Part shown: piece after piece, positions 2,675 to 30,132 of the stretch
Numbering within the stretch: the stretch's first letter is position 1
Layout: each line of letters begins with the position of its first letter
Assembly: GCA_021847735.1 (NCBI GenBank)
Contig: JAJZQD010000013.1
Coordinates: forward strand, 1-40,943
Source of the DNA: Bacillota bacterium
Lineage (GTDB): Bacteria > Bacillota > Thermincolia > Thermincolales > UBA2595
Length of the DNA: 40,943 bases
Direction: 5' to 3'
Notes under the pieces: model-generated
The model's input: the letters and a program-made list of their open reading frames with translations, nothing else
Databases searched by the model: none
Told to the model about the DNA's origin: nothing
Made by a program: the position numbers and the translations under genes

Positions 2675-3230
2675 ATCGAGTAGGAGGCGGGGTCGCCCCC
2701 GCCGTCCTCTCACACCACCTAGCATGCGGGTCCGCACTAGGCGGTTCGCCAAACCTGCCCAACATTGACTACAATGTTGGTGGGACATGGATTGGTTCAT
2801 GCCGGAGTTGACTAAGCCCTCACACAAAAGCCGTTGTGGTTTCACCACTCTCTCTTTCGTGGAGTCCTCTTTGAGGAATTCTGCTTTCTAACATCATCTC
2901 TCGAAATTCCCAGCATTGCCCGCTGTTTGACGTTCAGCCCTTCCCGGTTATCCGGTACTATGGCCTCTGCTGACTCCTGCCAGTCCAGCCTGGCCTCTCG
3001 GCCCTGCTTGTCAGGTTTACTGACGTTCATGGCAGGCCTCCCCAGATAAGAACGGCAACCTTCCTCCCATGTACCTGCCTCGTTTACTGCACTACCCTTT
3101 GATAGCATAGGGCTTTGTCTTGCCTTGCAGACTCGCCCGAGTAGCATAGCCTCACTCGAGATTCGTAGTCCTCAGGTCGGGAGTTTGCCTCCGGCTTCCT
3201 TCAGATTCCACCTATTGAAAAGGTTATTAT
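2675..3230 (-). mobile_element. Decayed group II intron lacking its reverse transcriptase
   Basis: Read on the minus strand, this stretch has the typical order of a bacterial group II intron. It opens with domain-I-like GGTGGAATCTGAAGGAAGCC, passes through GAGTCAGCAGAGGCCATAG, the conserved segment just upstream of intron-encoded reverse transcriptases, and ends with a domain-V-like hairpin (GAACCGCC...GCGGACCCGC...GGTGGTGTGAGAGG). A GC-rich domain-VI-like hairpin and CCTACTCGAT follow as the probable 3' end. The whole is only about 550 nt, with roughly 90 nt between the 5' part and the 3' domains, so the reverse transcriptase ORF is deleted. The 5' end also looks truncated because a standard GTGCG start was not found. 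The limits are approximate. Confidence 0.75.
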
Positions 3231-3238
3231 GTCGTGAC

Positions 3239-3499
3239 ACTATTACAAATTATGAACATCGTGAAAATATTCAAAAAAAAGAGCCAAGCACCCAGATACT
3301 GATTCCATTGGCCCTTATCGCTTTCGGTCTCACTTGTTCAACAATAATTGCACAATATGGGATGCTTAAACCCTTTTTTAGTAATTCACCTAGCCTCGAA
3401 GTCGTGGTTATCGAGGCTGAAAACCACCAGCCATCCTTTTGGCAGCGTTTTAAATATTTTTTTTTAAGACTATGGACTAACACTGTCGGCGTGTGCTAG
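3239..3499 (+). pseudogene. Possible membrane protein fragment next to the intron remnant
   Basis: This open frame begins immediately beyond the intron remnant and contains one convincing hydrophobic segment (LIPLALIAFGLTCSTIIAQYG). A short tail rich in aromatic and basic residues (FWQRFKYFFLRLW) follows. No convincing start codon with a ribosome binding site is present; TTG 3310 is the best internal candidate. I do not recognise the family. It may be the 3' part of a gene damaged by intron insertion, or a chance reading frame. It ends convergently with the small minus-strand gene at 3496-3576. Confidence 0.25.
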
Positions 3500-3576
3500 G
3501 GATCAATAAAAAACATGAGGATCAAAATCACGAAGATAACAAAAACAAATGTTCCTCCGAAGAACGGTTTACCCAT
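3496..3576 (-). CDS. Small hydrophobic spore-type protein, 26 aa (module 1)
   Basis: A very short gene begins MGKPFFGGTFVF, continues with a single hydrophobic run of Val, Ile, Phe and Leu, and ends MFFIDP. ATG 3576 follows a strong GGGGGGAG ribosome binding site at a spacing of 5. It is clearly related to the 28-aa protein at 3827-3913: both have a Gly/Phe-rich start, one membrane segment and a final Asp-Pro. The design resembles the tiny YjcZ/SscA-like spore proteins of Bacillaceae, but that link is by size and layout only. A candidate late sporulation promoter (AAC-N17-CATAATATTTA) lies about 60 nt upstream. Confidence 0.6.
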   Translation of the reverse strand: MGKPFFGGTFVFVIFVILILMFFIDP

Positions 3577-3636
3577 AGTTCTCCCCCCTTTACCTTCATC
3601 TGCCATAAGGGTACCAGGCAAATACATTATTATAAT

Positions 3637-3671
3637 AAATATTATGTAAATGTCTTTAATAAGGTTCAATT
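3637..3671 (-). promoter_or_regulatory. Candidate sigma-K-type promoter, module 1
   Basis: On the minus strand the sequence reads AAC, 17 nt, then CATAATATTTA. The same arrangement with identical spacing precedes the related small genes at 3827 and near 26411. It approximates the known sigma-K pattern mACm-N16/17-CATAnnnTA, with TT in place of the final TA. The assignment is inference from conservation and position. Confidence 0.45.
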
Positions 3672-3677
3672 AATGAT

Positions 3678-3709
3678 AAAAAAAAGTCCACCTTAAGCAC
3701 TTAAGGTGG
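3678..3709 (-). terminator. Intrinsic terminator downstream of module 2
   Basis: Read on the minus strand, a 10-bp perfect stem (CCACCTTAAG/CTTAAGGTGG, 2-nt loop) is followed by AC and eight T residues. It separates module 2 from the promoter of module 1. Confidence 0.7.
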
Positions 3710-3740
3710 TTGTCATAGTTTTTTGCGGGTTAACGTTAAT

Positions 3741-3771
3741 AACAAGCCCACACTGTCGGTGAGGGCTTGTT
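3741..3771 (-). terminator. Hairpin after module 2
   Basis: A 9-bp stem AACAAGCCC/GGGCTTGTT encloses a 13-nt loop containing CACCGACAGTG on the minus strand. There is no long T-run directly after it. The stem recalls the hairpin at 26194-26221 that follows module 3, so it may be a conserved part of the small-protein module. Confidence 0.5.
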
Positions 3772-3826
3772 ACGGTCAAACAACGATTGATTTTAAATTT
3801 TTATGATCCGGCTTCCTCTTATGTTC

Positions 3827-3913
3827 TTAGGGATCACCAAAGAACAGGAGAATGAGGATCAGAAAGAGAATGAACGCGAAGTTTGCGCCGAACGGAAATT
3901 TAAATCCTCCCAA
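3827..3913 (-). CDS. Small hydrophobic spore-type protein, 28 aa (module 2)
   Basis: A TTG start at 3913 follows an AAGGAGGG ribosome binding site at a spacing of about 6. The peptide begins MGGFKFPFGANFAF, contains one membrane-spanning run of Ile, Leu and Phe, and ends FFGDP. It parallels the 26-aa gene at 3496-3576 in length, glycine/phenylalanine-rich start and Asp-Pro end, so the two are probably duplicates. Upstream lies the shared AAC-N17-CATAATATTTA motif and downstream are two hairpins. The role is unknown; a spore-coat or spore-membrane micropeptide is plausible from the promoter type and from the spore genes elsewhere in the window. Confidence 0.6.
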   Translation of the reverse strand: MGGFKFPFGANFAFILFLILILLFFGDP

Positions 3914-3968
3914 TAAAAACCCTCCTTAGCTATTATTATTTGAATTTGGATTCGGTTTGAACCCTCGT

Positions 3969-3999
3969 TAAATATTATGTTAGATATAAAAAAAGTGTT
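3969..3999 (-). promoter_or_regulatory. Candidate sigma-K-type promoter, module 2
   Basis: On the minus strand AAC is followed by exactly 17 nt and CATAATATTTA, about 56 nt before the TTG start of the 28-aa gene. The spacer differs from that of modules 1 and 3, so the conserved boxes stand out against changed sequence. Confidence 0.45.
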
Positions 4000-4004
4000 C
4001 CATG

Positions 4005-4035
4005 AACAATCCCCCACCTATCGGTGGGGATTGTT
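4005..4035 (-). terminator. Terminator of the nicotinate phosphoribosyltransferase gene
   Basis: A stem AACAATCCCC/GGGGATTGTT is followed on the minus strand by CATGGAACAC and a run of seven T residues. It lies beyond repeat copy B, so it is probably the gene's terminator, separated from the coding region by insertion of the element. Confidence 0.55.
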
Positions 4036-4058
4036 AAAAATTTTATACCTCGTTTTTA

Positions 4059-4171
4059 TCCCAATTCCAAGACTCCACCTTCTATTAGGTGGAGTTTCCA
4101 CTTTTCTGCTTCAGTGGGGGTAGAGTCCCCCACTGAAGTTTCGATGTTCAGCTTTAGCTGAACGAGTTCAC
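4059..4171 (+). repeat. 113-bp three-hairpin element, copy B
   Basis: This full-length copy is flanked by CGTTTTTA on the TCCC side and by TTACTTTT after the GAGTTCAC end. The last bases of the element provide the TGA stop codon (4168-4170, minus strand) of the neighbouring nicotinate phosphoribosyltransferase gene, so the insertion replaced the gene's original end. Confidence 0.88.
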
Positions 4172-5520
4172 TTACTTTTTACCGTTGACAAAGAGGGATT
4201 ATCACAGGCCCGACGACCCACTTTATTCATTGGATACCATTTACCGTTAATTTGCACCCGGACAATGTCTGCCGTATAATCGTTGTTAGTGCCGCTTTCA
4301 CTTGAATTCTCCAGCAGCGAAGACCCCACTCCGTAAATATCAACAGGGACGCCCAGTTCTTCAAACCAACTTATCTTCTTAACGTTAAAACCGCCGGTAA
4401 CCACGATTTTCACCTGCCTGCACCATTCCCTTGCCACATCCAAGGCCTGGGTAGGCAGATTCCATTCCTTATAAGCGTTATCCATGGCCCTTCGAACGGC
4501 TTCCACCAGCCTTGGGTTCACCCCATAATCGTATTTTTTATCACCAACAGGTGAAATGGAAACGTCCTTCATATCCCCCGAGGTATCAAGCCGCACGGCA
4601 AACAGTTTGTATTTGGCGGCCTCATCTGTTTTACCCGCCCTGACCAATTCCAAGTAAGCAGGAAACATTTTCCCCATAACCGCCAGCGTTTCCCCGATAC
4701 AGTCATTATGGAAATCCACCAGGGCAATTCTGGGGACTTCGACAGGCATAATGCGGGAAAACTGCATCATAGTCTCTGCAGTGTCCCCCAGGAAACACGC
4801 AATAGAAGCGTGAGCCACAGTCCCACCGCCCTGTCCCCCCCACCAACGTCCCTGTTCATCAGTGGAAACAATGGCTCGGGAGTTCTTGCCATATTTTCGG
4901 TTATATACCTGGACAGCCAAAGCGTAGGCGTATCCATGCAGGGCTTGTACCTTATAATGGGCGAATCTGGCCGGAAAAAACATCACATCTTTTCCCCCGG
5001 CAGCCACCAGCACATTGTAAATATTGGTGGCAAGCCTTGTTGCTTCAGACAAAACTCCTAACACGGGAGTTTCCAGCCCGGCAAAATCTCTGTAGCGGCC
5101 CCTTATTTTTAGGACAGGCCGTACATCTTCAGGGTCCCCGCCGTAATCAACAAATTCACCGTCGTGAATGGCTTCCACTTCTAGCTCGTCTAAAGTCTTC
5201 CGGAAACGGCCGCTATCGTCAAAATCACCGGTACACTCTTCGATGATAGCCAGGGCTTCGTCTACCCCCGCTGCCAGACTGAACGGCCGGCGCCGGGTAA
5301 AAAACTGCATTTCCACCCTCAAATCACCGTTCTTAACAGCATTACAGTCAATTTCCCTTAGGTCACTTTCCCCGGCAAAAGTGTACCCTTCTTTTGACAA
5401 GGCTTCGAGAATCCTTACAATGTTGCAGAAGTAAGCGTCAGAATATCTTCCTTTTCTGATTCCGGTAGTATCAATATTAAAAACTTCCTTATCCAACCTT
5501 TTTCTGTCAATCACGCTCAA
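4168..5520 (-). CDS. Nicotinate phosphoribosyltransferase-like protein
   Basis: The protein has about 450 residues and resembles the nicotinate phosphoribosyltransferase family, which makes nicotinate mononucleotide from nicotinate and PRPP in NAD salvage. Matching segments are FNIDTTGIRKGRYSDAYF near the N-terminus, a central RFAHYKVQALHGYAYALAV, AIVSTDEQGRWWGGQGGGTVAHA, LVDFHNDCIGET, VRLDTSGDM, and the C-terminal phosphate-site-like IVVTGGFNVKKI plus GVGSSL. A GTG at 5553 extends the frame, but TTG 5520, about 10 nt after GAAGGGGG, fits better. The last residues (STVKSK) and the stop codon run into repeat copy B, so the native C-terminus may be slightly altered. The gene appears to be monocistronic. 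Confidence 0.85.
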   Translation of the reverse strand: MSVIDRKRLDKEVFNIDTTGIRKGRYSDAYFCNIVRILEALSKEGYTFAGESDLREIDCNAVKNGDLRVEMQFFTRRRPFSLAAGVDEALAIIEECTGDFDDSGRFRKTLDELEVEAIHDGEFVDYGGDPEDVRPVLKIRGRYRDFAGLETPVLGVLSEATRLATNIYNVLVAAGGKDVMFFPARFAHYKVQALHGYAYALAVQVYNRKYGKNSRAIVSTDEQGRWWGGQGGGTVAHASIACFLGDTAETMMQFSRIMPVEVPRIALVDFHNDCIGETLAVMGKMFPAYLELVRAGKTDEAAKYKLFAVRLDTSGDMKDVSISPVGDKKYDYGVNPRLVEAVRRAMDNAYKEWNLPTQALDVAREWCRQVKIVVTGGFNVKKISWFEELGVPVDIYGVGSSLLENSSESGTNNDYTADIVRVQINGKWYPMNKVGRRACDNPSLSTVKSK

Positions 5521-12323: not shown

Positions 12324-13151
12324 ATGGACCAGAGTAGTTGGCAAAATGTTTGGGACGGCGTGATAGACACGCCTGTTTCTACAAGACTGCAAAAACCGAG
12401 AAACTGCGGCTGGACAATGGTTATGGACAAAGGAATGGGCTTAGGTGAAACTTCAGAACTGCTTTCTGTCGCCGGAAGGTATATTGATTACGTAAAATTG
12501 GCCTTTGGCACCTCAGCCCTCTATAACGGTTATATTTTACGGGAAAAGATTGCCCTTATCAGGTCCTTGGACATCGATGTTTACCCTGGCGGCACCTTCT
12601 TTGAAATCGCCATCATGCAGGATAAGATGGATCACTTCCTGGAACTGGCACAGGAATTAAATTTTTCAGCCATAGAGGTGTCTGACGGAACTATCACTAT
12701 GTCATCAGATACCCGCCTTCAGGCCATAAAAAGTGCCGCCAAAGCCGGTTTTCGGGTACTTTCGGAGGTCGGGAAAAAAGACCCCCTGGAATACCTGACA
12801 CCAGACACAATTGCCGCTCAAATCAACTTTGACCTGGCGGCAGGGGCGAGCAAGGTTATCCTGGAAGCCCGGGAATCCGGCCTGGGCATCGGGATTTTTG
12901 GTGACAAGGGTGAAATCAGGGAGGAATGTGTTGAACACATCCTGGCAAAGATACCTGATTTTAATTGTATCCTCTGGGAAGCGCCGTTAAAAAAGCAACA
13001 GCAGGAACTTATCCTCCGTTTCGGGCCCAATGTCAACCTGGGAAATATACCCCCGGCCGAAGCCCTGGCCTTGGAATCTCTCAGAGTCGGCCTGCGGAGC
13101 GACACTTTCAAACCACTAATCGAACGTTACCTGTGCGGAACCCTAAAATGA
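12324..13151 (+). CDS. comA: Phosphosulfolactate synthase
   Basis: This 275-residue protein of the ComA family adds sulfite to phosphoenolpyruvate, giving (R)-2-phospho-3-sulfolactate. Recognisable segments are MVMDKGMGLGETSELLS, YIDYVKLAFGTSALY, the EVSDGTITM strand of the TIM barrel, GFRVLSEVGKKDP and VILEARESGLGIGIF, with the catalytic acidic and basic residues of the family in context. ATG 12324 follows AAAGGAGATG. The stop codon overlaps the ATG of comB (ATGA), indicating a two-gene operon. In methanogens the pathway leads to coenzyme M; in Bacillus, homologues (YitD/YitC) make the 3-sulfolactate stored in spores. The many spore genes here favour the second role. Confidence 0.92.
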   Translation: MDQSSWQNVWDGVIDTPVSTRLQKPRNCGWTMVMDKGMGLGETSELLSVAGRYIDYVKLAFGTSALYNGYILREKIALIRSLDIDVYPGGTFFEIAIMQDKMDHFLELAQELNFSAIEVSDGTITMSSDTRLQAIKSAAKAGFRVLSEVGKKDPLEYLTPDTIAAQINFDLAAGASKVILEARESGLGIGIFGDKGEIREECVEHILAKIPDFNCILWEAPLKKQQQELILRFGPNVNLGNIPPAEALALESLRVGLRSDTFKPLIERYLCGTLK

Positions 13152-18479: not shown

Positions 18480-18561
18480 AAGGTGGCAGAACACACCTGC
18501 CCTTTCCTTAATATTTCTGTCAAAACTCAAATAAGATTGCCACACCCTCTTCCGTGGTTAA

Positions 18562-18674
18562 TCCCAATTCCAAGACTCCACCTTCTAGAAGGTGGAGTTT
18601 CCACTTTTCTGCTTCAGTGGGGGTAGAGTCCCCCACTGAAGTTTCGATGTTCAGCTTTAGCTGAACGAGTTCAC
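18562..18674 (+). repeat. 113-bp three-hairpin element, copy C
   Basis: This full-length copy differs by TCTAGA instead of TCTATT in the loop of the first hairpin, making that stem fully palindromic. The 5' flank is GGTTAA and the 3' flank after GAGTTCAC is TTTTATTT. It lies between the convergent iadA and gerD-like genes, where its hairpins could also act in termination. Confidence 0.88.
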
Positions 18675-18693
18675 TTTTATTTTTATGAATTTA

Positions 18694-25808: not shown

Positions 25809-26021
25809 TTGACTATTGGTCAGAAGATGCATCAAACTTTGGCAAGTCTTGAAGGTGCAGCAACAAACCTGAAAACCTTTGCACTTGATTCTCAGGATAA
25901 AAACGCACAGCAAATGTTTAATGATTTAAGCGGACAAGTGGAAAACATTTGCAACACTTTAAGAGGGCGTGTAAATTATATTGAGCAGCAGGAACCTCAA
26001 TATAAAATGCAACAGCCTTAA
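25809..26021 (+). CDS. DUF1657 spore-associated small protein
   Basis: This 70-residue soluble helical protein begins MTIGQKMHQTLASLEGAATN and ends with EPQYKMQQP. TTG 25809 follows AAAGGAGG at a spacing of 8. DUF1657 genes accompany spoVAC-spoVAD-spoVAE in the mobile spoVA operons (spoVA2mob) of heat-resistant Bacillus spores. A second copy heads the spoVA cluster at 29843 and a third, related segment ends the DUF421 protein. The function is unknown. Repeat copy D starts 23 nt after the stop codon. Confidence 0.8.
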   Translation: MTIGQKMHQTLASLEGAATNLKTFALDSQDKNAQQMFNDLSGQVENICNTLRGRVNYIEQQEPQYKMQQP

Positions 26022-26043
26022 CAACAAAAAATACTTGTCTTTA

Positions 26044-26156
26044 TCCCAATTCCAAGACTCCACCTTCTATTAGGTGGAGTTTCCACTTTTCTGCTTCAGT
26101 GGGGGTAGAGTCCCCCACTGAAGTTTCGATGTTCAGCTTTAGCTGAACGAGTTCAC
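26044..26156 (+). repeat. 113-bp three-hairpin element, copy D
   Basis: This full-length copy is directly downstream of the DUF1657 gene. The 5' flank is GTCTTTA and the 3' flank after GAGTTCAC is TTTAAGTC. It lies 406 nt before copy E in the same orientation. Confidence 0.88.
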
Positions 26157-26193
26157 TTTAAGTCTTACAAGGAAATTATATATATGCGATGAA

Positions 26194-26221
26194 AAAGCCC
26201 CTACCTTTCGGTGAGGGCTTT
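26194..26221 (-). terminator. Hairpin terminator of module 3
   Basis: On the minus strand AAAGCCC/GGGCTTT encloses a loop containing CACCGAAAGGTAG and is followed by TTC. It resembles the hairpin after module 2 at 3741-3771. Confidence 0.5.
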
Positions 26222-26329
26222 CGTTAAATGTGAAAAAACGAATGAACTTCAAACTTTTTTTAATTTTTAATGAAACCCCTGTAAAACGGCGGTTAACTAA
26301 TTTTAGTAGAAACCTTGCGCCCTAACCAT

Positions 26330-26420
26330 AATCATGAAGGGCTGTATTGTAATCATAGTAAGGCCCGGACGATTACCATAGATCTAAACGGGAATACTGA
26401 GCCTCCGATAATACTCCCCC
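26330..26420 (-). pseudogene. Decayed third copy of the small spore-type gene (module 3)
   Basis: Downstream of the shared AAC-N17-CATAATATTTA motif, a strong AGGGGGAG ribosome binding site (about 26414-26420) is followed by a frame that begins IIGGSVFPF. This recalls the start of the 28-aa gene (GGFKFPF), but it lacks a normal start codon and then stops without the hydrophobic run. It is probably a frameshifted relic lying between repeat copies D and E. The end given is approximate. Confidence 0.35.
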
Positions 26421-26456
26421 TTTATGTTTAAGTCACGAAGATATAATGCTGCCTAT

Positions 26457-26488
26457 TAAATATTATGTAAATATCTTTAAAAAGGTTA
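26457..26488 (-). promoter_or_regulatory. Candidate sigma-K-type promoter, module 3
   Basis: On the minus strand the order AAC, 17 nt, CATAATATTTA is the same as in modules 1 and 2. The segment AACCTTnTTAAAGAnATTTA is nearly identical to module 1, showing common descent of these upstream regions. Confidence 0.45.
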
Positions 26489-26562
26489 CAGCATGATATC
26501 TTAAACGTACCGGTCACGAAACCTTCTCCAGGCAGCATATATAATTAACAGCGTAATATTTA

Positions 26563-26675
26563 TCCCAATTCCAAGACTCCACCTTCTATTAGGTGGAGTT
26601 TCCACTTTTCTGCTTCAGTGGGGGTAGAGTCCCCCACTGAAGTTTCGATGTTCAGCTTTAGCTGAACGAGTTCAC
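26563..26675 (+). repeat. 113-bp three-hairpin element, copy E
   Basis: This full-length copy has 5' flank TAATATTTA and 3' flank after GAGTTCAC of TACGGTAA. It lies between module 3 and the spoVAE terminator. Copies D and E bracket a 406-nt stretch that contains only module 3. Confidence 0.88.
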
Positions 26676-26780
26676 TACGGTAAACCATAATGTTTTATAA
26701 TTCATCAGCCCGCTAATGGTAAACCGACTTTATCATTCAACGCATGACGGTATTTAATTCCATATTTCAAACAGTAATCC

Positions 26781-26810
26781 AAAAAAAGGCCCCACAGTTT
26801 CTAACGTGGG
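26781..26810 (-). terminator. Terminator of the spoVA operon
   Basis: On the minus strand CCCAC/GTGGG with a 10-nt loop is followed by GCC and seven T residues, about 85 nt beyond the spoVAE stop codon. Confidence 0.65.
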
Positions 26811-26896
26811 TTTCATCAGTAGGAAAAAATTTTTTTCGGTTAAACCTGATTAACACAAGTTTTTTCAATTGAAACATCTCCTGAAATCTAAAAGTT

Positions 26897-27250
26897 TTAA
26901 CCTTTCGGCCTAAATAGTAAAGAACCTAAGAAACCAAAAATTATTGCCGCTGATATACCGGCACTTGTAACCTCAAAAATGCCCGTAAGTACTCCGATTA
27001 TACCGTCTCTCTGAGCTTCCATTAAAGCACCTTTTACAAGGGCGTTACCAAAACTGCTTATTGGAACTGAAGCCCCTGCACCTGCAAACTTTACTAACGG
27101 CTCATATAACCCAAGACCTCCCAACACAGCCCCAAGGACTACCAAAGTACTCATCGTATGGGCCGGAGTAAGTTTCAATACATCCAACATTAACTGTCCG
27201 ATAACACATATACCACCTCCAACAATAAAAGCCCAGATAAATTTTTCCAC
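26897..27250 (-). CDS. spoVAE: Stage V sporulation protein AE (SpoVAEb type)
   Basis: The 117-residue membrane protein has about three or four hydrophobic segments and the family features FIWAFIVGGGICVIGQLMLD, TPAHTMSTLVVLGAVLGGLGLYEPLVKFAGAGASVPISSFGNALVKGA, of which GAGASVPISSFGN is the most diagnostic. SpoVA proteins form the channel that moves Ca-dipicolinate into the forespore and out during germination. A GTG start at 27250 follows AAAGGGGTG. It is the last gene of the cluster DUF1657-DUF421-spoVAC-spoVAD-spoVAE. Confidence 0.92.
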   Translation of the reverse strand: MEKFIWAFIVGGGICVIGQLMLDVLKLTPAHTMSTLVVLGAVLGGLGLYEPLVKFAGAGASVPISSFGNALVKGALMEAQRDGIIGVLTGIFEVTSAGISAAIIFGFLGSLLFRPKG

Positions 27251-27266
27251 TGCTTACACCCCTTTT

Positions 27267-28268
27267 TCACATTTCTATGGATACAGCATGGGCAATGCAA
27301 GGTATAGTTTCTTTTTGCTGATAAGAAAGTGGTGACATTAACGCGCCGGTTGCAATAATTAAAATCCTTTTTAATTCGCCCTTCCTCATGCGGTTAAGAA
27401 AATGACCGTAAGTCACTGTGGCAGAACAGGCGCAACCGCTACCCCCGGCCATTACAGGCTGGTCTTTTTTATATATCAAAATGCCGCAGTCAGTAAATTT
27501 TTCAGGTGGAATTTTAATTCCATGCTTATCTAATAAATCAACGGCAATTGTGTGTCCAACTTGACCAAGGTCACCTGTAGCAATCAAATCATAATAATCC
27601 GGGTCACGACTTAAGTCCCTGAAATGGGCCTGAATCGTATCGACTGCGGCAGGGGCCATAGCCGCCCCCATGTTAAAGGGGTCGGAAAGACCCATATCTA
27701 CCACCCTTCCAATAGTAGCCGATGTTACACAAGGCCCCTCCCCTTCCCGGGATAGTAATGCCGCCCCTGCTCCAGTAACAGTCCACTGAGCAGTGGGAGG
27801 CTTTTGAGCGCCGTACTCGGTAGGATACCTGAACTGTTTTTCCACCGCCATATTATGACTGGACGCTGCTGCTAAAGCATTTTCTGCCGACTTACTGTTG
27901 ACTATTAAAGCTGCTAGAGCCAGCCCTTCCATCGAACTGGAACACGCCCCGAAAATACCTAAGTATGGAACTGCCAGAGTACGGGCAGCAAAACTGCTTG
28001 AGATGATCTGGTTCATTAAATCTCCACTAAGGAAAAACTGAACATCTTCTTTTTTCATGCTTGCTTTATCGATGGCTTTTTTGCAGGCCTGTTCCAGCAA
28101 TTTTTTTTCGGCCTTTTCAACACCATCCTGCCCTAACCACACATCTTCGTGAAGAATATCAAAATCGTCAGCTAAGGCTCCTTTAGCCTCAAAAGGTCCA
28201 CCAATAGCAGCTGAGGACCGTATAACCGGTTTTGAGTTAAATACCCACGTTTGATGACCTTTTAGCAT
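27267..28268 (-). CDS. spoVAD: Stage V sporulation protein AD
   Basis: The 333-residue SpoVAD has a thiolase-like fold and binds dipicolinic acid on the spore inner membrane. Diagnostic parts are GHQTWVFNSKPVIRSSAAIGGPFEAKG, FLSGDLMNQIISSSFAAR, GIFGACSSSMEGLALAA, the HNMAVEKQFRYPTEYG loop and MAGGSGCACSATVTYGHF. Its length is usual. It overlaps the spoVAC stop (TAATG), so translation is coupled. The cysteine-rich GGSGCACS segment is also found in Bacillus SpoVAD. Confidence 0.95.
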   Translation of the reverse strand: MLKGHQTWVFNSKPVIRSSAAIGGPFEAKGALADDFDILHEDVWLGQDGVEKAEKKLLEQACKKAIDKASMKKEDVQFFLSGDLMNQIISSSFAARTLAVPYLGIFGACSSSMEGLALAALIVNSKSAENALAAASSHNMAVEKQFRYPTEYGAQKPPTAQWTVTGAGAALLSREGEGPCVTSATIGRVVDMGLSDPFNMGAAMAPAAVDTIQAHFRDLSRDPDYYDLIATGDLGQVGHTIAVDLLDKHGIKIPPEKFTDCGILIYKKDQPVMAGGSGCACSATVTYGHFLNRMRKGELKRILIIATGALMSPLSYQQKETIPCIAHAVSIEM

Positions 28269-28747
28269 TACATTCCCCCCAGCGCTTTAACAGTTATTTT
28301 GACCAGGGCAACTACAAAAGCCGAAAATACTCCATAAGCAATTACCGACCCTGCTAATTTAAACATGTTCCCACCAACACCTAATACATAACCCTCAGTA
28401 CGGTGTTCAATGGCCGCCGATGCTACTGTATTGGCAAATCCCGTAACAGGAACCGCGCTTCCCGCCCCGGCCCACTGGGCTAAATGGTCATAAACTCCAA
28501 ACCCGGTAAGTAAAACAGATATTATAATCAAAACTGCCACTGTGGGATTACCTGCTGTCACTTCGGAAAACCCAAAATACATCATAAAAATCATTTGTAA
28601 CCCCTGTCCGATAGTACAAATAATTCCTCCGGCTATAAAGGCTCTGATGACATTCTTTAAAACCGGTCGTTTGGGTTCCCTGGCTTTAGCAAAAACTTTA
28701 TATTCCTGTTGGGTCAGAGTCAGTTTTTTAATTTTTTTATTAGACAT
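28268..28747 (-). CDS. spoVAC: Stage V sporulation protein AC
   Basis: The 159-residue membrane protein has about four helices. Family features include RPVLKNVIRAFIAGGIICTIGQ, GVYDHLAQWAGAGSAVPVTGFANTVASAAIEHRTEG and GGNMFKLAGSVIAYGV. SpoVAC acts as a mechanosensitive channel for dipicolinate in Bacillus. ATG 28747 is preferred (GAGGTG 9 nt upstream); the 12-nt longer start lies nearer the DUF421 stop. It overlaps spoVAD. Confidence 0.93.
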   Translation of the reverse strand: MSNKKIKKLTLTQQEYKVFAKAREPKRPVLKNVIRAFIAGGIICTIGQGLQMIFMMYFGFSEVTAGNPTVAVLIIISVLLTGFGVYDHLAQWAGAGSAVPVTGFANTVASAAIEHRTEGYVLGVGGNMFKLAGSVIAYGVFSAFVVALVKITVKALGGM

Positions 28748-28760
28748 TTTTACAATCACC

Positions 28761-29621
28761 TCATCGCAATAGGTAAGGCTCTAATTTTTCTATTACCTGT
28801 TTAAGTTTCTCGGCATCCTTCGAATACATATCCTTTGCCTGGTTATCTTTGGTTTCCAAAGCAAAACTCATAAGGTCAGCCCTGGCCTTTTCAAGATTTG
28901 CATAAACCAGTTCTTTAACTTTTGGTTTTGGAACCTGCATGGCATCATCAAAGAGGTCCACATATAGCTCGCCTGATCCGTCTACCTGGCCCATAAAAAC
29001 ATTAGCTGCGGATACGCCTATTCGCTCCAACTGGTCATTTAACCATTCCTGATTCAGACCCAAATTGGACAGCGGTTCATTAAGCATGTTTCCGTCTAAT
29101 ATTACCGTTTGAGATTCGGGTTGTGGGGCGACTTTCCTTCCCAAATCAAAAGGAGTTATAGGTTTTTTATCCGACTTCAACAAAACATTTATGTCCCCCG
29201 TTGTTTCCATTACGGCAAATTCAACATCGGCCAAATTGAAGGCATTCTTAGAGCGCAACTCTCTTAATAGTTCCTCCCCTGTGTATCTAACCTGGATTAA
29301 ATTCTCTTCCATTACCTTGCCGTCTTTAACCAGTATTGTGGCTTTTCCGTTAACCCAATCATGGACCCACTTGCTTTTTATAGCCAGAAAATCTACCGCT
29401 ATTGGAAGCACTACCCAGATACCTAAAGCGATAAGTCCTAAAACCAAATTCTTAATTACGTTGAGAGAAATTAAGGCAGTTATAATAGCAATAACCGCAT
29501 AATTAACAAAGCTGAAAGGGTTCATTCTGGCAGGCTGCCTTTTTCCCATAATCCTTATTAAAATCAGTGCTAGGAAAAACAGTGCAATAGACCTAAGCAA
29601 TATTACGATCCATTCGTTCAT
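28761..29621 (-). CDS. DUF421 (YetF-like) membrane protein with DUF1657-like tail
   Basis: The 286-residue protein has three N-terminal membrane helices with the DUF421 signature ILIRIMGKRQPARMNPF, then the soluble YetF/YcaP domain (GKATILVKDGKVMEENLIQVRYTGEELLRELRSKNAFNLADVEFAVMETTGD core). The last 50 residues (VYANLEKARADLMSFALETKDNQAKDMYS) align by eye with DUF1657 (LASLEGAATNLKTFALDSQDKNAQQMFN), so a DUF1657 module appears fused to the end. DUF421 and DUF1657 genes are standard members of the spoVA2mob operon. ATG 29621 follows GAGGGG. The gene lies 16 nt after the DUF1657 stop and 14 nt before spoVAC. Confidence 0.9.
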   Translation of the reverse strand: MNEWIVILLRSIALFFLALILIRIMGKRQPARMNPFSFVNYAVIAIITALISLNVIKNLVLGLIALGIWVVLPIAVDFLAIKSKWVHDWVNGKATILVKDGKVMEENLIQVRYTGEELLRELRSKNAFNLADVEFAVMETTGDINVLLKSDKKPITPFDLGRKVAPQPESQTVILDGNMLNEPLSNLGLNQEWLNDQLERIGVSAANVFMGQVDGSGELYVDLFDDAMQVPKPKVKELVYANLEKARADLMSFALETKDNQAKDMYSKDAEKLKQVIEKLEPYLLR

Positions 29622-29636
29622 TTTTTCCCCTCACTT

Positions 29637-29843
29637 TTATAAACCTTTATATTGCGGTTCTTCAAATTCCAGAGTTTGGATTCTTTTTTCTAAATCATTG
29701 ATTACTCCTTTAACCATTCCTGTTGCTTCCCGAAAGGCATGTGCTGCCTCTTCATTCTGACTCTGTGTTGCGTAAATCTCTATTGTACTTTTAGCGCTTT
29801 TCAAGCTGGACAAGGTCTGTTTTACTTTGGAACCAACTGTCAT
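29637..29843 (-). CDS. DUF1657 protein, first gene of the spoVA cluster
   Basis: The 68-residue helical protein begins MTVGSKVKQTLSSLKSAKST and ends FEEPQYKGL. ATG 29843 follows GGGAGGG at a spacing of 8; an open frame to 29951 lacks a ribosome binding site and has no family similarity. It shares the terminal EPQYK and the overall helix pattern with the DUF1657 protein at 25809. It probably opens the operon DUF1657-DUF421-spoVAC-AD-AE. TGAATA-like boxes upstream (near 29900) could be part of a forespore sigma-G promoter, but the -10 box is not convincing. Confidence 0.82.
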   Translation of the reverse strand: MTVGSKVKQTLSSLKSAKSTIEIYATQSQNEEAAHAFREATGMVKGVINDLEKRIQTLEFEEPQYKGL

Positions 29844-30132
29844 TACCCAAACCCTCCCTATTAAACAAATGGCGACCTTTTGGCCGCAATTATTCAAATA
29901 TGCTGTATTCAATTTGGAAGCGTTCCACCCCTTTTTATAGTACCCTGCCATTTCCCAAAGTATACGGTTAATTGCAGTATCTGCTTGGATATTAGTTTTC
30001 GAGTTATTGCGTTAATTATACTTAATGCTTTTTAAGAGGTGCATATAACGTTCAGTCATTGTGTTTCCTAGCTTTAACACTGGTTCAAAAACATTTTGAA
30101 TGATTTTTTCAATAATATTTTGATCATCATTT

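Follow-up and report, generated by a model that had tools for sequence, protein, structure and literature searches.

Two micropeptide genes of 26 and 28 codons lie on the minus strand of the window (the whole stretch of DNA that was analysed, 40,943 nt), where the original prediction had placed them. They appear to be paralogous, monocistronic members of a multi-copy sporulation family and are most likely sigmaK-controlled micropeptides of the interface between the outer forespore membrane and the coat. The genes, missed by annotation, probably encode small components from which the spore envelope is built. The finding is a widespread unannotated family; its kind, tiny membrane peptides under sigmaK control, is already known.

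Two micropeptide genes and a decayed third module

The features of the window to which the text refers are the following:

3496-3576, minus strand: micropeptide gene 1, 26 codons, MGKPFFGGTFVFVIFVILILMFFIDP, ATG start, TAG stop
3581-3588 (read 3588-3581), minus strand: Shine-Dalgarno of gene 1, GGGGGGAG, from sequence
3636-3666, minus strand: sigmaK-type promoter 1, AAC-N17-CATAATATTTA, exact
3688-3709, minus strand: terminator-like hairpin with T run, separating gene 2 from promoter 1
3827-3913, minus strand: micropeptide gene 2, 28 codons, MGGFKFPFGANFAFILFLILILLFFGDP, TTG start, TAA stop
3920-3927 (read 3927-3920), minus strand: Shine-Dalgarno of gene 2, AAGGAGGG, from sequence
3969-3999, minus strand: sigmaK-type promoter 2, AAC-N17-CATAATATTTA, exact
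26353-26420, minus strand: decayed third module, Shine-Dalgarno GGGGGAG (26420-26414) and ORF remnant IGGSVFPFRSMVIVRALL followed by a stop, ATC replacing the start codon
26457-26487, minus strand: third exact promoter copy, AAC-N17-CATAATATTTA
36-154 (inverted), 4049-4173, 18552-18676, 26034-26158 and 26553-26677: copies of a hairpin element

Each of the two genes is preceded by the strong ribosome binding site attributed to it earlier (GGGGGGAG for gene 1, AAGGAGGG for gene 2). Because the terminator-like hairpin lies between them, they look like separate transcription units. The peptide of gene 1 matches the family described below at E 5.5e-12 (profile A1, phylum search) and that of gene 2 was recovered both in its own genome and in the phylum. 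A longer version of gene 1, starting at an upstream ATG (MADEGKGGRTMGK...), was rejected: it has no Shine-Dalgarno sequence there, while a perfect one precedes ATGGGTAAA. The terminal Asp-Pro noted in the original prediction is present in the window peptides but does not extend to the family, whose members end in Gly-Asp/Asn, in many cases with N, D, P or G after it.

At 2937-3222 on the minus strand lie RNA domains of a group II intron (Rfam RF02001 and RF01998); no adjacent ORF for an intron reverse transcriptase could be recognised. The ORF that follows (3212-3496) has no Pfam match.

The sequence AAC-N17-CATAATATTTA occurs in three exact copies in the window, compared with none expected from shuffles, and ends approximately 55-60 nt before the start codons of genes 1 and 2. 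The genome search suggested with the original prediction, run on the organism's own assembly (2.18 Mb, 62% complete), returned only these three copies, all within the window, and the reversed pattern had no match in the same 2.18 Mb. The spacing of 17 nt is common to all three modules and, as had been claimed, the spacer of module 2 has diverged: it agrees with that of module 1 at 5/17 positions, compared with 15/17 for modules 1 and 3. The third module retains its promoter and Shine-Dalgarno sequence but no working peptide gene. It is a remnant, since its start codon is ATC and its membrane run is disrupted (IIGGSVFPFRSMVIVRALL followed by a stop).

The decayed module sits between a spoVA cluster (SpoVAD, SpoVAE/SpoVAC-type, DUF421) and a DUF1657 gene; the sporulation cluster that encloses it spans 25809-29951 (DUF1657, SpoVAE/SpoVAC-type, SpoVAD, DUF421+DUF1657, DUF1657). 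It is also flanked by two copies of the hairpin element, a sequence of 117-125 nt that folds into three strong hairpins (DNA fold z-score -8.9) and recurs in at least 40 near-identical copies across the partial genome. As a mobilising enzyme for this element, no TnpB was found, and a Y1 transposase only as a broken fragment.

Extent and sequence of the family

Three further members are present in the same genome (C6:31.5 kb, C13:1.7 kb and C13:8.2 kb), all with AC-N17-C(A/G)TA-nTAT upstream. Across 399 Bacillota genomes, the family was detected in 92 with a 20-row profile (E <= 1e-3) and in 100 with a 60-row profile (E <= 1e-4), so that it is a discrete family and the search is near saturation. 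Profile E-values reach about 1e-14 per genome. The original prediction was to be abandoned if related spore formers held no conserved members; they are found in these 92-100 genomes. Plasmids gave no match. Carrier genomes contain from one to about 11 copies, typically 3-6, and tandem arrays are frequent.

From the fetched loci, 160 distinct members were collected. They are usually about 25-45 residues long (median 30) and consist of a core, [N/R/K/S]-[F/W]-A-F-I-L-F-L-I-L-I-L-L-F-F-G-[D/N], behind a Gly/Phe-rich tail. The core FAFILFLILILLFFGD is highly conserved while the tails are very variable. Differences among members number 51819, 20915 and 101444 at codon positions 1, 2 and 3, and 71138 of the 119232 differing codon pairs are synonymous. 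This excess at third positions, together with the mostly synonymous changes, argues that the members are translated genes under purifying selection.

Neither Pfam nor NCBIfam has a model for the family (NCBIfam matches were at chance level only), and a literature search did not find the core string in any spore context. The claim that the family is undescribed therefore holds for these databases. It is nevertheless not without precedent in kind, since Bacilli possess the YjcZ family, which has the same layout and is under sigmaK. The genomic context gives no function: the 118 proteins neighbouring members in other genomes belong to scattered housekeeping families unrelated between loci, no Pfam domain being shared by more than 8 of them, and no conserved operon or partner gene was observed among them.

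The same membrane core also occurs in longer proteins (loci L062, L144, L124, L138 and L139). Among them are a 115-aa protein (L062, minus strand) preceded by a sigmaK-type promoter of its own, proteins of 40 aa with tails rich in Lys, and one of 79 aa whose tail may be coiled. They point to the core as a portable anchor for membranes. Another group, the long-tail subfamily MAEEGGSLFGPKKxxQDGSLGFNFPGGSFAFILFLILILLFFGDN (L013, L069, L071, L076, L077, L090, L092 and L112), has no exact promoter match. Several of its weight-matrix scores fall slightly below the threshold, and it may use a variant -10 box.

Promoter signature

The 150 nt upstream of 154 members were scanned for promoters. AC-N16-18-CATANNNT was found upstream of 84 of them, compared with 2.8 expected in first-order Markov sequences. 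Restricted to spacings of 16 or 17, it precedes 83/154 members as against 15/313 of the other genes in these loci (p 2e-33), and the signal appears in 41 of 48 genomes, spanning at least 13 taxonomic families. A weight matrix built with the tested locus left out recognised 99/154 members and 16/313 controls (5% control level). The spacing is almost always 16 or 17, 18-19 showing no excess, and the consensus reads tGTaAC(A/C)-N16/17-CATAnnAT. Both window genes match the sigmaK pattern exactly (-35 AC, 16-17 nt, -10 CATAnnnT). None of the 154 members matched the strict sigmaE (ATA -35), sigmaG or sigmaA patterns.

In Clostridioides difficile the -10 element is common to sigmaE and sigmaK promoters while the -35 element is ATA for sigmaE and AC for sigmaK (PMC3789822), and a similar distinction is observed in B. 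subtilis (PMC517825). The enrichment of the AC-type -35, together with the absence of the strict sigmaE pattern, indicates a sigmaK rather than a sigmaE signature. The resemblance to sigmaK promoters initially noticed for the window therefore extends to much of the family, and the sequence data argue strongly for assigning the family promoters to sigmaK. About 35-45% of members have no recognisable sigmaK-type promoter within 150 nt; those in tandem arrays could be transcribed by read-through.

Association with sporulation

The spore protein SpoIVA (TIGR02836) is present in 98 of the 100 carrier genomes, the two exceptions being assemblies that are 62% and 75% complete. Among complete genomes it accompanies 89/89 carriers compared with 305/356 overall (Fisher p 1e-7, a value inflated by shared ancestry). 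Part of this association reflects shared ancestry because most of the sampled phylum sporulates (335/399 genomes). No reasonably complete genome among the 399 carries the family without SpoIVA. Together with the enriched sigmaK-type promoter, this distribution agrees with the proposed link to sporulation, and expression of the family during sporulation is strongly suggested. As about 70% of SpoIVA genomes have no member, the family is not essential for sporulation in general and is better viewed as an accessory spore part.

The window also encodes a ComA-type phosphosulfolactate synthase (PF02679) at 12324-13148 on the plus strand. In B. subtilis, yitCD, the genes for phosphosulfolactate synthesis, show late mother-cell expression (PMC517825).

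Predicted topology and role

In 93 members the segment before the helix carries a higher net charge than the segment after it; in 12 the order is reversed. By the positive-inside rule, this excess of positive residues before the helix indicates an N-in/C-out orientation. The peptides are accordingly predicted to be single-pass, with the Gly/Phe-rich N-terminus in the mother-cell cytoplasm. If they insert in the outer forespore membrane, this tail would face the coat. An AlphaFold2 model of a 34-residue member (that on C6) shows one helix at residues 14-31 (mean pLDDT 75, pTM 0.39), which adds little beyond the hydrophobic run itself.

We propose that, late in sporulation, sigmaK RNA polymerase would transcribe each gene in the mother cell from its own AC-N16/17-CATAnnAT promoter. 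The product, predicted to cross the membrane once as a helix and to carry its Gly/Phe-rich tail at the N-terminus, would then lodge in the outer forespore membrane with the tail toward the forming coat and the acidic Gly-Asp end toward the intermembrane/cortex side. In the least certain step, many near-identical copies would serve as small membrane anchors or as hydrophobic packing at the interface between the outer membrane and the coat, a role that might also be that of YjcZ-type micropeptides in Bacilli. To assign the peptides specifically to coat or cortex, as first suggested, would be a guess.

The peptides might instead be late-sporulation regulators in the manner of CmpA, SpoVM or BofA, binding and controlling a different membrane protein. 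Some small peptides of sporulation are known to regulate or recruit (SpoVM, CmpA), and the highly conserved core FAFILFLILILLFFGD could be a protein-contact face. However, many paralogs, tandem arrays and variable tails fit a structural or redundant role better, and an adjoining conserved partner gene was not found. On the strength of paralog number and tail variability we favour a structural role and consider a regulatory one unlikely. Production of the same peptides from sigmaE promoters, or from both sigmaE and sigmaK promoters, would place them earlier in the mother cell. The -10 sequence CATAnnAT, common to both factors (PMC3789822), is compatible with this, but the strict ATA -35 occurs in 0/154 members whereas AC at 16 or 17 is strongly enriched with a GTAAC consensus, which leaves this timing very improbable.

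A different origin would be type I toxin-antitoxin systems, in which small hydrophobic membrane toxins are silenced by antisense RNA. The size, the single hydrophobic run and the multi-copy, dispersed genes all fit, and one review counts the YhzE family of B. subtilis as type I toxins (PMC6563280). Such toxins have a charged C-terminus (PMC6563280), however, whereas members of the family end in a short acidic Gly-Asp. The promoters are of sigmaK type, with no fit to the strict sigmaA pattern among the 154, the opposite strand has no sigma70-type promoter for an antisense RNA (3300-4150), and nearly all carriers possess SpoIVA. Toxins are a distinctly poor candidate on three counts: the type of promoter, the opposite strand without one, and the confinement of the family to spore formers. 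That the genes are chance hydrophobic ORFs downstream of AT-rich sequence has a negligible probability: low-complexity hydrophobic strings can be accidental and one window module is decayed, but the third-codon-position bias, the E-values down to about 1e-14 per genome and the promoter and Shine-Dalgarno sequence common to many families contradict it. The best explanation as a whole is that these are sigmaK-transcribed single-pass micropeptides with a structural role at the outer forespore membrane/coat interface, to which we give a probability of about 0.72 on the sequence evidence.

Significance

Late-stage assembly of the spore envelope is poorly known outside Bacilli, and genes of less than about 40 codons usually go unannotated. 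The search yields a ready list of candidate spore peptides, over half of them behind a readable sigmaK-type promoter, for use with existing spore proteomes and RNA-seq. The family also provides a handle on the function of the many YjcZ-like peptides. It suggests that very small and strongly hydrophobic peptides belong to sporulation in endospore formers generally and are not a peculiarity of Bacillus.

Comparison with known systems

The closest counterpart is YjcZ of Bacilli (PF09680, YjcZ_2), whose members usually have 25-50 residues, with a Gly/aromatic (Gly/Tyr)-rich N-terminal tail and a C-terminal hydrophobic run, and occur in up to 14 copies per genome. AC-N16/17-CATANNNT precedes 15 of the 31 YjcZ members examined, and yjcZ belongs to the B. 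subtilis sigmaK regulon (PMC517825). The two families align in the same register, GxFA(F/L)I(L/V), but differ in the core (FALIVVLFILLIIVGA in YjcZ, FAFILFLILILLFFGD here), and the acidic Gly-Asp end is absent from YjcZ. At the curated cut-off of PF09680 (21 bits), neither the window peptides nor ten relatives gave a match, and none was found in the organism's own genome or in relatives. An hhalign comparison scored 21.5-23.8 (probability 51-59%), a score that 24 of 150 shuffles of the YjcZ transmembrane columns also reach. Membership of YjcZ is therefore unproven. YjcZ was detected in 7/399 genomes, which we read as Bacilli (B. subtilis control), and no genome carries both families; this non-overlap is weak because the sample holds only 7 YjcZ genomes. 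From these comparisons the family seems to work like YjcZ and may or may not share its descent. It is conceivable, at slightly less than even odds, that this is an unnamed spore micropeptide family, spread across Bacillota outside the YjcZ-bearing Bacilli and independent of YjcZ. It would line the outer forespore membrane under sigmaK as a parallel solution to the same structural task, its membrane module sometimes being fused to longer tails or domains.

SscA/YhzE of B. subtilis is a 28-residue spore coat assembly peptide. Compared by description only, it resembles the family in size, hydrophobic run and late mother-cell expression. SpoVM, 26 residues long, which anchors SpoIVA at the outer forespore membrane, is likewise a membrane-bound mother-cell micropeptide confined to spore formers. 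It is, however, a single-copy, sigmaE-controlled peptide with an amphipathic peripheral helix, whereas the family described here has a fully hydrophobic helix, multiple copies and sigmaK-type promoters.
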